This document shows positions 28,910 to 64,000 of a DNA stretch of 64,000 bases, in pieces. The position numbers and the translations under genes were made by a program. The stretch comes from Bdellovibrio sp. (GTDB taxonomy: Bacteria > Myxococcota > SpSt-1050). How positions within the stretch are numbered: position 1 is the first letter of the stretch; every line of letters starts with the position of its first letter. The notes below the pieces were generated by a model. The model did not search any database and was not told the DNA's origin. It saw only the letters and a list, made by a program, of their open reading frames with translations. The stretch is from NCBI GenBank assembly GCA_020725805.1, contig DYEF01000065.1, positions 42,070-106,069 on the forward strand. The letters run 5' to 3'.

Positions 28910-29470
28910 TTATTTAAGACCCATCTTTTTAAGAATGGACATTGCACTCGTTGTAGGTGATACGTCTTCGGGGAGATAAATCATTACTCCGCCCTTGGCG
29001 GGTCTGACAGTGACTTTCCCCTCTTCTGTAAGCTGCTTGGTAACTTTTATCGGGTCCTCGCCGAAATACTCCTTGAAGGCCTGATTGAAGCCGGAATAGA
29101 CGGAATGAATACCTTTGTATTTGGGAGGTCTGAGCTTTTCTATTGCAAGTCTGGTAAATTCCTCGTAACTCATCTTTTTGCTGTCATTCCTATCTATTCC
29201 CATCTTTTCGAATATCTGGGAGGTATTTACGGAAGGAGATACGTCCTCGGGAAGGTAAATCATTACTCCGCCCTTGGCAGGCCTGATAGCGATTTTACCC
29301 TCATCCGCAAGCTGTTTTGTGACCTTTATCGGGTCCTCACCGAAGTATTCCTTGAAAGCCTGATTGAAACCGGAAAATACAGAGTGAATCCCTTTATACT
29401 TGGGCGACCTGAGAGTTTCAATGGACTTCTTAACAAATTCTTCATAGCTAAGTTTCTTTTCTTCTGACAT
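28910..29470 (-). CDS. Tandem-duplicated KGIH-motif protein
   Basis: 186 residues from the ATG at 29470, with CTGGAGG upstream. The protein is two copies of one 93-residue unit (8-91 and 101-184), each with a SYEEF start, PKYKGIHSV, SGFNQAFKEYFGEDP, an IKVTKQL helix, RPAKGGVMIYLPED and a KMG end. The helix-helix-wing order, with a lysine-rich beta wing, suggests a winged-helix or similar small nucleic-acid-binding fold. That is inference from pattern only. The units are close to 85 percent identical at protein level by eye but differ at many third codon positions, so the duplication is not very recent. Confidence 0.8.
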   Translation of the reverse strand: MSEEKKLSYEEFVKKSIETLRSPKYKGIHSVFSGFNQAFKEYFGEDPIKVTKQLADEGKIAIRPAKGGVMIYLPEDVSPSVNTSQIFEKMGIDRNDSKKMSYEEFTRLAIEKLRPPKYKGIHSVYSGFNQAFKEYFGEDPIKVTKQLTEEGKVTVRPAKGGVMIYLPEDVSPTTSAMSILKKMGLK

Positions 29471-29673
29471 CAGTAATCCTCCAGAAAAATTTACAATAAT
29501 AATATCACAATAAAGTACAATGTCAAATATATAGTCCTTTTCTGTCAAGGCCACCCTGAAATTTATAAATAAATTCCTGAGCAAATCCACATTTTGGGCA
29601 AATTTTATAAACCGCTTCCTGTCTTATTGATATCTGTCTCAACATAAAGCCAAAAGATATCCCTTTATTGGCT

Positions 29674-29710
29674 ATGGTCTGCGGACCGTCGACTGTCGAC
29701 CGTGGACCAT
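29674..29710. repeat. Palindromic GGTC/GTCGAC tract
   Basis: A 37-base tract with ATGGTC at one end and GACCAT at the other. It has two GTCGAC words inside and overlapping CGGACC/CCGTGGACC words. The same GTGGTCTGCGGAC word recurs at 29952-29964. It looks like a low-complexity dispersed repeat. Confidence 0.55.
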
Positions 29711-29771
29711 TATTGAACTTCAGCTCTTCCGCCTTCAGTTCTTCAGCACTTTTTCTCTGTAGATTATTAAC

Positions 29772-29813
29772 TGTCGCTTCAATACACTCTATTACTCAGC
29801 GACCTTAATATTA
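29772..29813 (-). repeat. REP-like hairpin A
   Basis: Read on the minus strand, the conserved head TATTAAGG leads into a hairpin with stem GTCGCT/AGCGAC (29773-29778 with 29798-29803) and a 19-base loop containing GAGTGTA. Nearly the same head, stem position and loop occur in element B, with a compensating C-G to G-C swap in the stem. Confidence 0.65.
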
Positions 29814-29860
29814 GAATGATATTAAGTAGGCGAAACCATATCGAATTTTCCGATTTAAGT

Positions 29861-29902
29861 GGTGGCTTCGGTACACTTCGTTACTCAGCCACCTTAATAG
29901 CA
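29861..29902 (-). repeat. REP-like hairpin B
   Basis: Stem GGTGGCT/AGCCACC (29861-29867 with 29887-29893), with the same TATTAAGG head on the minus strand and a loop containing AAGTGTA. The two elements share orientation and are about 88 bases apart, as in paired REP arrays. Confidence 0.68.
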
Positions 29903-29981
29903 CTAACGCTTTCAGCTCTAAAAACTGTGACTATGGACTTCTTCCGTGGTCTGCGGACTGATATTACGTGCCTGAGAGCAA

Positions 29982-30920
29982 CTAACCTAATCTCTCTCCC
30001 GGCAGGACAGGATTCCCGGTGAGAAACTCCTTTACATTGAGAGGATTCTTCCCCTCTTTCTGGAGTCTTTTAATAATAAAAACTCCCTCTTTTGTGCTGA
30101 CAAATATACCTCTTTCAGAGGATTCGATTACTGTACCCGGCACCGACGGATTGTGTTCCTGATAGTAATCAGCAGCCAGAACCTTTATAAGCGCACCTTT
30201 GTAATATGTAAAAGTCGAGGGCCAGGGATTGAGACCCCTGACAAGATTAAATAACTCCTTGGCCGGCTTTGAAAAATCAAGCCTTCCGTCCTCCTTTTTG
30301 AGCAACGGCGCATAAGTGGCAAGGGATTCATCCTGTTTTTCGTATTTTAAGGTGCCTTGAGTAAATCCTTCGATGAATTCCGGCAGCATACTACAGGCAA
30401 GCTCAACGAGCCTGTCGTGCAGAGATTCTGCATTATCCTCTTTTAGTATTGGTATTTCGCGTCTGAGCACAATATCGCCGGCATCCAGCCTGTAAACCAC
30501 CTTCTGAAATGTTATACCTGTCAGCTCATCTCCGTTTATGATAGCCCAGTTTATAGGTGCCGGGCCCCTGTATCTCGGCAGAAGGGATGCGTGGATATTG
30601 AAAACGGAATCCTTCTTCATATCGAGAAATCTCTGAGAGAGAATCTTCCCGTATGCAGCAACGAGGATGAGGTCGAACTCCTTTTTTGATATATATTCGA
30701 GTGATTCGTCCGAATTGATATTGTCCGGAGAAAATACCTCTATATTATTCTGAAGGGCAAGCGATTTTGCCTCGGATACCTTTATCTTCTTCCCCCTTCC
30801 GGCCGGTTTATCCGGCTGGGTTATTACCAGAACCGGTTTTGAAATATCAATGAGGGTTTTCAGTACCCCTGCGGCAAAATCAGGCGTCCCCATAAAGATT
30901 ATCTTACATTTTGAGTTCAT
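29982..30920 (-). CDS. fmt: Methionyl-tRNA formyltransferase
   Basis: 312 residues. It formylates initiator Met-tRNA. The N-terminal GTPDFA (11-16) and the catalytic Asn108, His110 and Asp146 (in FNIHASLLPRYRGPAP and YRLDAGD) are in place, and the C-terminal OB-like domain is present at normal length. It overlaps def by 17 bases; the def-fmt pair is the classical formyl-cycle operon. Confidence 0.97.
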   Translation of the reverse strand: MNSKCKIIFMGTPDFAAGVLKTLIDISKPVLVITQPDKPAGRGKKIKVSEAKSLALQNNIEVFSPDNINSDESLEYISKKEFDLILVAAYGKILSQRFLDMKKDSVFNIHASLLPRYRGPAPINWAIINGDELTGITFQKVVYRLDAGDIVLRREIPILKEDNAESLHDRLVELACSMLPEFIEGFTQGTLKYEKQDESLATYAPLLKKEDGRLDFSKPAKELFNLVRGLNPWPSTFTYYKGALIKVLAADYYQEHNPSVPGTVIESSERGIFVSTKEGVFIIKRLQKEGKNPLNVKEFLTGNPVLPGERLG

Positions 30921-63165: not shown

Positions 63166-63544
63166 TTGCAAAACCAGCTTCAGAATGACTCTTTAATGTT
63201 GTGTCTAAGATATGCAGGTAAGAAACTTGTTATGATAAATATTTTAATTACACTAATTAATAAGTTGAAGGCTTCTATGGGGGGGGTAATAGAAGCCTTC
63301 GGCGAAAACTTTAACTCTTTTAACAGGCGGTCTTTTATAAAGATGCTATATACGAAGCTGCTAAACAAATAAACAACCTACCTATCCCTGACGATATGTT
63401 CGCTATATACACCAATGCCTATCACGGAACTTATCTGATATATAATATATAACAGGTTAAAGAATGGAAGGTGGAGTAAAGTAGTGCCGATAATAAAGAG
63501 TATGGAATACGAATTAAGACAATTATTCAACCTCAGATTTTCAA
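63166..63544. other. Non-coding or decayed region with a long hairpin
   Basis: A 68-codon frame (63166-63372) and a second frame (about 63318-63448) both read like protein fragments but match no family I know, and each lacks a convincing start. A 12-bp perfect inverted repeat at 63267-63278 and 63289-63300 encloses a 10-base loop with eight consecutive G. The region may hold decayed genes or the flank of a mobile element. Confidence 0.45.
63267..63300. repeat. 12-bp hairpin with an oligo-G loop
   Basis: Arms GAAGGCTTCTAT (63267-63278) and ATAGAAGCCTTC (63289-63300) pair perfectly; the loop is eight G plus TA. Three more pairs outside (G64-C303 and two G-U) extend the stem to about 15 bp. Eight G in a row is unusual in this AT-rich DNA. 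Confidence 0.75.
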
Positions 63545-64000
63545 ATGCTCAGACACAAAATTCTTGACAAGCCTCACAAACAAAAGTTCAAATTCAAATT
63601 ATTCGCCTACTGCTTTATGAACTCCCATATCCACCTTATCATACAAACTCCAAAAGACCCCAATATCTCCATATCCAAAATTATGCACGCTATCCTTTGG
63701 AGATACGCCTTATCCTACAACAAGGCTCACAACAGAAAAGGTCATTTCTTCTCAGACAGATTCAAATCTCCTATAGTTCAATCTGACAAATACGGACTAA
63801 CGCTATTAAAGTATATTACCCAGAATCCTGTTAGGGCAGGTATGGTTAAGAGGTGTGGAGAGTATATGTGGAGTTCATATAAGGTATATGCGGAGGGAAA
63901 GAATGACCCGTTGATAGACCTGTTACCATCGTATTTAGGGTTATCAGCCAGTAGGAGAATAGCGAGTAAGATGTTCAGGGATATGGTAGAGGGTGTGGTA
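63545..64000 (+). CDS. REP-associated tyrosine transposase (Y1/HUH), truncated
   Basis: 152 codons from the ATG at 63545, still open at the right edge. The HUH motif is HIHLII (28-33) and the catalytic Tyr is expected in the helix WRYALSYNKAHNRKG. GHFFSDRFKS, YITQNPVRAG and YMWSSYKVY are hallmark segments of RAYT/IS200-type Y1 proteins. The first strand and the RGN motif that normally precede the HUH motif by about 35 residues are missing, and an in-frame stop lies just upstream at 63515, so the 5' end is truncated or frameshifted. No terminal inverted repeats of a classical transposon are seen. Confidence 0.85.
   Translation, partial: MLRHKILDKPHKQKFKFKLFAYCFMNSHIHLIIQTPKDPNISISKIMHAILWRYALSYNKAHNRKGHFFSDRFKSPIVQSDKYGLTLLKYITQNPVRAGMVKRCGEYMWSSYKVYAEGKNDPLIDLLPSYLGLSASRRIASKMFRDMVEGVV

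Follow-up and report, generated by a model that had tools for sequence, protein, structure and literature searches.

Introduction

RAYT transposases are the usual explanation for REP and BIME repeats. BIMEs are defined as regularly spaced REPs in alternating orientation (PMC2817692), and those of Enterobacteria, Stenotrophomonas and others are built of few related hairpin types, regularly spaced and alternating, which lie between genes, several to a cluster, and are dispersed (PMC2817692). The GTAG REPs, among them the bulged REPs of E. coli and those of Coxiella, carry a two-base mismatch where the outer stem meets the inner one, and their 5′ head is asymmetric (PMC2817692, PMC8266576). The CGTC-tagged REPs (Di Nocera et al., 2013, PMC3733652) are dispersed palindromes without a dedicated transposase.

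Here we describe a family of hairpin repeats that shares each of these features and, with the Coxiella REP, the same TGAG/CGAA step (PMC2817692). The locus lies in a window of 64,000 nucleotides, the whole stretch of DNA that was analysed (positions 42070-106069 of contig C60, the window end coinciding with the contig end), in a genome assembly of 3.29 Mb in 115 contigs that is 97.9% complete. In form and distribution the family is as in REP/BIME elements: REP-like hairpins are regularly spaced and alternate, and many copies are dispersed between genes. It differs from BIMEs in that its hairpin types, A to E, share an internal loop and not a stem, in that the end types are fixed (A and C at opposite ends), and in that the family is bordered by two families of short repeats; the units are not bona fide REPs of a REP/RAYT system, having neither a GTAG tag nor an adjacent or otherwise linked RAYT. 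Whereas GTAG REPs occur with RAYT/TnpA_REP, the head here is NAAGG, there is no functional RAYT, and Y1 genes elsewhere are unflanked by these hairpins. The tag also differs from that of the CGTC-tagged REPs (PMC3733652), and the units that were read lack CGTC at their foot. The family is not classed as GTAG-REP/RAYT because tests for the tag and for the transposase found neither. It is a lineage-specific, BIME-like hairpin-mosaic family, and a member of a cross-phylum class with a conserved internal loop. A well-organised BIME-like family has expanded in one lineage without a linked RAYT.

Results and discussion

Three hairpins lie between fmt and a LiaF-like gene

A sequence-only reading of the window had claimed two REP-like hairpins with a compensatory change in their stems. 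Both are present on the minus strand at 29772-29901, as the units TATTAAGGTCGCTGAGTAATAGAGTGTATTGAAGCGACA (29772-29810) and TATTAAGGTGGCTGAGTAACGAAGTGTACCGAAGCCACC (29861-29899), which are 89 nt apart from start to start and 82% identical across 38 nt. Within the window, a 26-nt consensus of the pair matched only these two units, against a chance expectation of 0.00 (100 shuffles), and DNA folding gave z-scores of –3.8 for the first hairpin and –1.8 to –2.4 for the second. The compensatory exchange from GTCGC/GCGAC to GTGGC/GCCAC is real; as evidence of covariation it is weak from two stems alone, and becomes strong because of the genome-wide and cross-phylum copies described below. Between the two lies a third, degenerate hairpin in the opposite orientation (plus strand, 29817-29851), which had been missed, so that the order of the locus is C(–) b(+) A(–). 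The same position holds intact B units in clusters on contigs C50, C57, C62, C79, C82 and C91. The features of the locus are:

28910-29590, minus strand: LiaF-like two-repeat gene, one neighbour of the hairpin locus
29675-29709: GTCCACA-type short repeats of the left border, TGGTCTGCGGACCGTCGACTGTCGACCGTGGACCA
29716-29750: GCTGAAG/CTTCAGC-type short repeats of the left border
29772-29804, minus strand: C-type hairpin, outer stem GGTCGC/GCGACa, core TGAGTAATAGAGTGTATTGAA
29805-29812, minus strand: asymmetric 5′ head of the C unit, AATATTAA, running into GG
29817-29851, plus strand: degenerate B-type hairpin, core TAAGTAGGCGAAACCATATCGAA, outer stem decayed
29861-29893, minus strand: A-type hairpin, outer stem GGTGGC/GCCACC, core TGAGTAACGAAGTGTACCGAA
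29894-29901, minus strand: asymmetric 5′ head of the A unit, GCTATTAA, running into GG
29900-29960: right border, CTTTCAGCTCT, then GTCCACA-type repeats (TGGTCTGCGGACTG)
29982-30920, minus strand: fmt, the other neighbour

The protein of the LiaF-like gene consists of two near-identical repeats of ~70 residues each (SYEEFVKKSIETLRSPKYKGIHSVFSGFNQAFKEYFGEDP..., then SYEEFTRLAIEKLRPPKYKGIHSVYSGFNQAFKEYFGEDP...); its LiaF_C match is weak, and the copy in the congener, the only other species of the genus, is 86% identical.

The hairpins form ordered mosaics throughout the genome

The genome-wide copy search that the sequence-only reading had called for returned many copies, not just two. In pattern searches, 18 places matched the full unit at 3 mismatches or fewer (reversed control, 0), and exact TGAGTA-N3-18-TAYCGAA cores were found 65 times (reversed-pattern control, 1). 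The copies fall into at least 28 clusters, all of them between ORFs, in tandem, convergent and divergent gaps and in both orientations relative to transcription. Five types were distinguished by differing complementary stems around one common loop motif: type A (outer stem GGTGGC/GCCACC), type B (GGACAT/ATGTCC), type C (GGTCGC/GCGAC), type D (TTGGC/GCCA) and type E (GGGCGT/ACGCC, with a longer inner stem). They are arranged as an ordered mosaic, A(+)-[B/E](–)-(D(+)-[B/E](–))n-C(+), in which neighbouring hairpins are 41-53 nt apart and, in the multi-unit clusters read, alternate in orientation. The heads read were TTAAGG, CTAAGG, TAAAGG, AAAAGG and CAAGG. Since several contigs begin or end within clusters, copies are probably missing from the assembly, and a gene borne by the element could be hidden in the gaps at clusters. 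The clusters at or near contig ends are those on C20, C35, C54, C57, C62, C66, C82, C95, C99 and C110.

Clusters are usually bordered by both families of short heptamer-like repeats seen at the window locus. Genome-wide, repeats of the GCTGAAG/CTTCAGC type are 22.6-fold denser beside hairpin clusters than further off and are present in 22 of the 29 cluster regions; the corresponding figures for the GTCCACA type are 17.8-fold and 20/29. Short heptamer-like tandem repeats also occur in the intergenic DNA of cyanobacteria, where they are known as heptanucleotide STRRs, and these may resemble the cluster borders here, not the hairpin mosaics.

Clusters are absent from matched intergenic sites of the congener

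Across 57 other genomes of the phylum, the core is no more frequent than background, and in the congener there were 3 core matches against 2 in the control. None of the 7 sequence-matched intergenic flanks in the congener carries a cluster; where both flanks matched, the interval is 353 bp in this genome and 82 bp in the congener (C77), or 384 bp and 181 bp (C12). Gain of the clusters in this lineage is a simpler reading than their loss in the congener, and this difference in presence between the two species is also what suggests that the family may have been mobile. The intergenic flanks of the congener are too diverged for a target-site duplication to be read, and no clean empty site is available for the locus in the window, since fmt and the LiaF-like gene are not neighbours in that species.

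One internal loop is constant across phyla while both stems vary

In a collection holding one genome per species, exact matches to the 21-nt core TGAGTAGCGAAGCGTATCGAA were found in at least 114 stretches, from Treponema, Anaerolineales, Prolixibacteraceae, Herbaspirillum, Gulosibacter, Ignavibacteria, Dependentiae and others, against a chance expectation, by our own estimate, of ~0.1 in 257 Gb. This recurrence bears on whether the family could have spread solely via homologous recombination, gene conversion or slippage between repeats that already existed. Several contigs start or stop at clusters and the flanking short repeats could recombine, as such a process would have it; however, it accounts neither for clusters at many unrelated positions between genes, which are empty in the congener, nor for the one core common to several phyla, and we consider it improbable.

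The flanks of the core were not part of the query, and the pairing between them is the unbiased figure: over 75 unique cross-phylum stem contexts, 3.97 of 6 positions were paired, compared to 2.10 ± 0.14 with partners shuffled. In an alignment of 16 units from this genome with 10 foreign units, the latter picked for long stems, 93.3% of cells were paired and double changes were seen in 8 of the 12 pairs; no shuffle of 500 reached the observed outer-stem pairing, and slid registers also fell far below it. The inner stem varies in the same manner. The 46 different cores of Gulosibacter have 21 distinct inner stems, with 3.46 pairs against 1.19 when shuffled; their loops are exactly GNA in 23/46, and a bulged G is present in 40/46. 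As the outer and inner stems both vary with compensation, the constant part is the step between them, which runs T.A, two bases facing two (GA/GA), G.C and finally TA/TA with bulges. Sheared pairs would be expected at the GA/GA step, as is established in nucleic-acid chemistry. The exact recurrence of the loop core in several phyla while both stems vary means that the recognition signal, the internal loop, is separable from the stem, and the conserved core provides a sequence rule for finding such repeats. Neither the core nor related TGAGC..GTCGAA strings were found in the running text of the papers searched.

Base-pair covariation fits a DNA hairpin and an RNA hairpin alike. The clusters are intergenic and near genes, and their hairpins could form in RNA, as would be expected of 3′ UTR stabilisers, attenuators or terminators kept for gene expression and not as mobile DNA. 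At the window locus, however, no intrinsic terminator (a GC-rich stem-loop with a T run) was found, and a covariance-model search of Rfam 15 gave no family at gathering score, only a chance match of 15.5 bits against a threshold of 34. Furthermore, clusters take both orientations relative to transcription, and tandem, convergent and divergent gaps are all occupied. DNA loops of the GNA/GNNA kind with at least two closing G-C pairs have extraordinary stability, the melting temperature of GCGAAGC being 78 °C (PMC4686876), and half of the loops in one genome, Gulosibacter, fit this class. Because the GNA and GNNA loops belong to an ultra-stable class of DNA, a single-stranded DNA form is favoured, short of proof, and we judge a role confined to RNA to be quite unlikely.

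Nested arrangements were also seen among the foreign copies. In six loci, from Anaerolineales and similar (L021, L025, L045, L049, L065 and L105), the 21-nt core forms the loop of a far larger palindrome with arms that are themselves CCTGAGCTTGTCGAAGG hairpins, nested and of the same general TGAG..TCGAA kind. In one locus from Bacteroidetes (L038), a hairpin copy is apparently inserted in the loop of another (TTTCCTGAGTAGCG-[TGTTTCC core GGAAA]-GCGTATCGAAGGAA).

The hairpins are not associated with Y1 transposases

The sequence-only reading had further proposed a link between the hairpins and a RAYT-type transposase frame in the same window:

63545-64000, plus strand: fragment of a REP-associated tyrosine transposase-like gene (Y1_Tnp), judged not to be the partner of the hairpins

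The fragment is incomplete, as that reading had said, its N-terminal part missing and its frame open at the contig end. Its Pfam Y1_Tnp match (E 7.6e-12) covers positions 36-121 of 121, the first 35 profile positions being missing, and its NCBIfam REP_Tyr_transpos match scores 58.4 bits, below the cut-off of 80. The assembly holds no other Y1 gene. The fragment lies ~34 kb from the hairpin cluster of the window, and has its right flank beyond the contig end; an intact RAYT/TnpA_REP gene flanked by the same hairpins was not found.

If a Y1 transposase (RAYT/TnpA_REP) had spread the hairpins as in E. coli, and had since decayed to the fragment in the window, the presence of one Y1 gene in the same genome, with RAYT as its nearest NCBIfam family, would be accounted for. 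The architecture of known REPs is in keeping with this: those of E. coli share the plan, their two conserved within-stem mismatches being required for TnpA_REP activity (PMC8266576), and the RAYT-tied REP of Coxiella burnetii, GTAGGTTGGGCTGAGCTTGCGAAGCCCAAC, contains a TGAG..CGAA hairpin (PMC2817692, Table 1). The distribution of Y1 genes, sought in this genome, 57 relatives from the phylum and 20 core-bearing genomes, argues against it. The sole Y1 gene is shared with the hairpin-free congener, whose orthologue retains the N-terminal region and matches it at 80% identity across the part they have in common. No Y1 gene (E ≤ 0.001) was found in 6 of the 20 core-bearing genomes, including the hairpin-rich Treponema bryantii (224 cores) and Gulosibacter chungangensis (74 cores), and the flanks of 70 Y1 loci elsewhere, read out to ~600 bp, contain no TGAG-CGAA hairpin. 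In addition, no unpaired GTAG (GTRG) stands directly 5′ of the hairpin in the units read; the hairpin foot is without a GTAG/GTGG tag and the head is NAAGG. Spread by a since-decayed RAYT is thus an unlikely history, and it is very unlikely that the fragment in the window spread the hairpins. Of the earlier reading, the REP-like character of the hairpins stands, with many intergenic copies, compensatory stems, an AAGG 5′ head and BIME-like alternation; the link to RAYT does not. A distant kinship with the REPs of Coxiella and E. coli in the mode of recognition is possible, going by this likeness of plan.

Upstream of the truncated frame, by ~245 bp, is a perfect 10-bp inverted repeat with a loop of eight G (63267-63300, GAAGGCTTCT-atggggggggtaat-AGAAGCCTTC), which could mark the end of a former element, or the breakpoint at which the transposase lost its N-terminus.

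A probable non-autonomous family amplified between genes

We consider it probable that the locus is part of a dispersed, non-autonomous family of hairpin repeats, seeded and amplified between genes in BIME-like mosaics. This account starts from the observed copy number, order, orientation and covariation of the hairpins, their absence from the congener, their recurrence across phyla and their lack of association with RAYT. As single-stranded DNA, each unit would form an outer stem, a T.A pair, a tandem G.A mismatch (TGAG/CGAA), a G.C pair, T.A/A.T, an inner stem and a short loop, often GNA or GNNA; the stems would be free to change with compensation, with the TGAGTA/TATCGAA internal loop conserved. 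The element would have been seeded, and then amplified, in the intergenic DNA of this lineage, where an enzyme acting in trans probably recognises the exposed hairpin on single-stranded (lagging-strand) DNA, and alternating pairs would give rise to the mosaics. In this genome, we infer, the mobilising enzyme has been lost or is unassembled.

Some small GIY-YIG nuclease genes lie beside such hairpins in other genomes

All ORFs of the 114 core loci were compared, and a small GIY-YIG nuclease recurred in five loci from different genomes. In one reading, which we hold tentatively, this small single-domain nuclease is the partner of the hairpins, so that a hairpin-bounded gene would be the autonomous element and the dispersed hairpins its non-autonomous derivatives. 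This would supply the enzyme left unnamed in the account above, and the two are not exclusive. Compared in the same genomes, hairpins lie within 600 bp of 10 of 50 small GIY-YIG loci (30 hairpins), 0 of 50 Y1 loci and 0 of 20 UvrC loci. Among relatives from the window's phylum, a sample not selected for hairpins, 1 of 30 GIY-YIG loci is flanked (L377), its hairpins forming an inverted pair on either side of the gene; of 24 unique loci from plasmids and viral contigs, which were collected by protein similarity alone, 3 are flanked, all with hairpins no more than 260 bp from the gene, and on a Planktothrix plasmid three hairpins surround a small GIY-YIG gene. When pooled, 14/104 small GIY-YIG loci are flanked compared to 0/70 for Y1 (Fisher p = 0.0009). 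The flanked proteins belong to at least two well-separated groups in which phyla are mixed.

Against this, the link was spotted post hoc in five loci, most GIY-YIG loci are unflanked, and the 3/24 replicate, taken by itself, does not differ significantly from its own Y1 control of 0/8, for which viral contigs yielded no Y1 relatives. The small nuclease was not found in this assembly, which has UvrC only, and tblastn detected no GIY-YIG remnant beside the clusters of this genome; the high-copy genomes Gulosibacter and L095 have just UvrC or weak, longer GIY-YIG matches. Because only UvrC is present here and two hairpin-rich genomes are without a typical small GIY-YIG nuclease, the link is suggestive rather than shown. 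Our literature search found no paper linking GIY-YIG nucleases to such repeats. The small GIY-YIG nuclease is nevertheless the best lead, on this suggestive evidence, for the mobilising enzyme, and it offers a testable enzyme for a widespread class of orphan palindromic repeats. A broader proposal, speculative and open to doubt, is that TGAG/CGAA hairpins constitute a cross-phylum superfamily of single-stranded DNA elements, read via the internal loop between free stems and mobilised by small GIY-YIG nucleases and not by RAYT, of which the mosaics here would be orphaned, non-autonomous members.

In two of the flanked loci (L272 and L377), the GIY-YIG proteins have C-terminal tails (NPSTGSG and VLRQAQHERV) that are apparently translated from the downstream hairpin, so that the repeat would now be part of the coding sequence.
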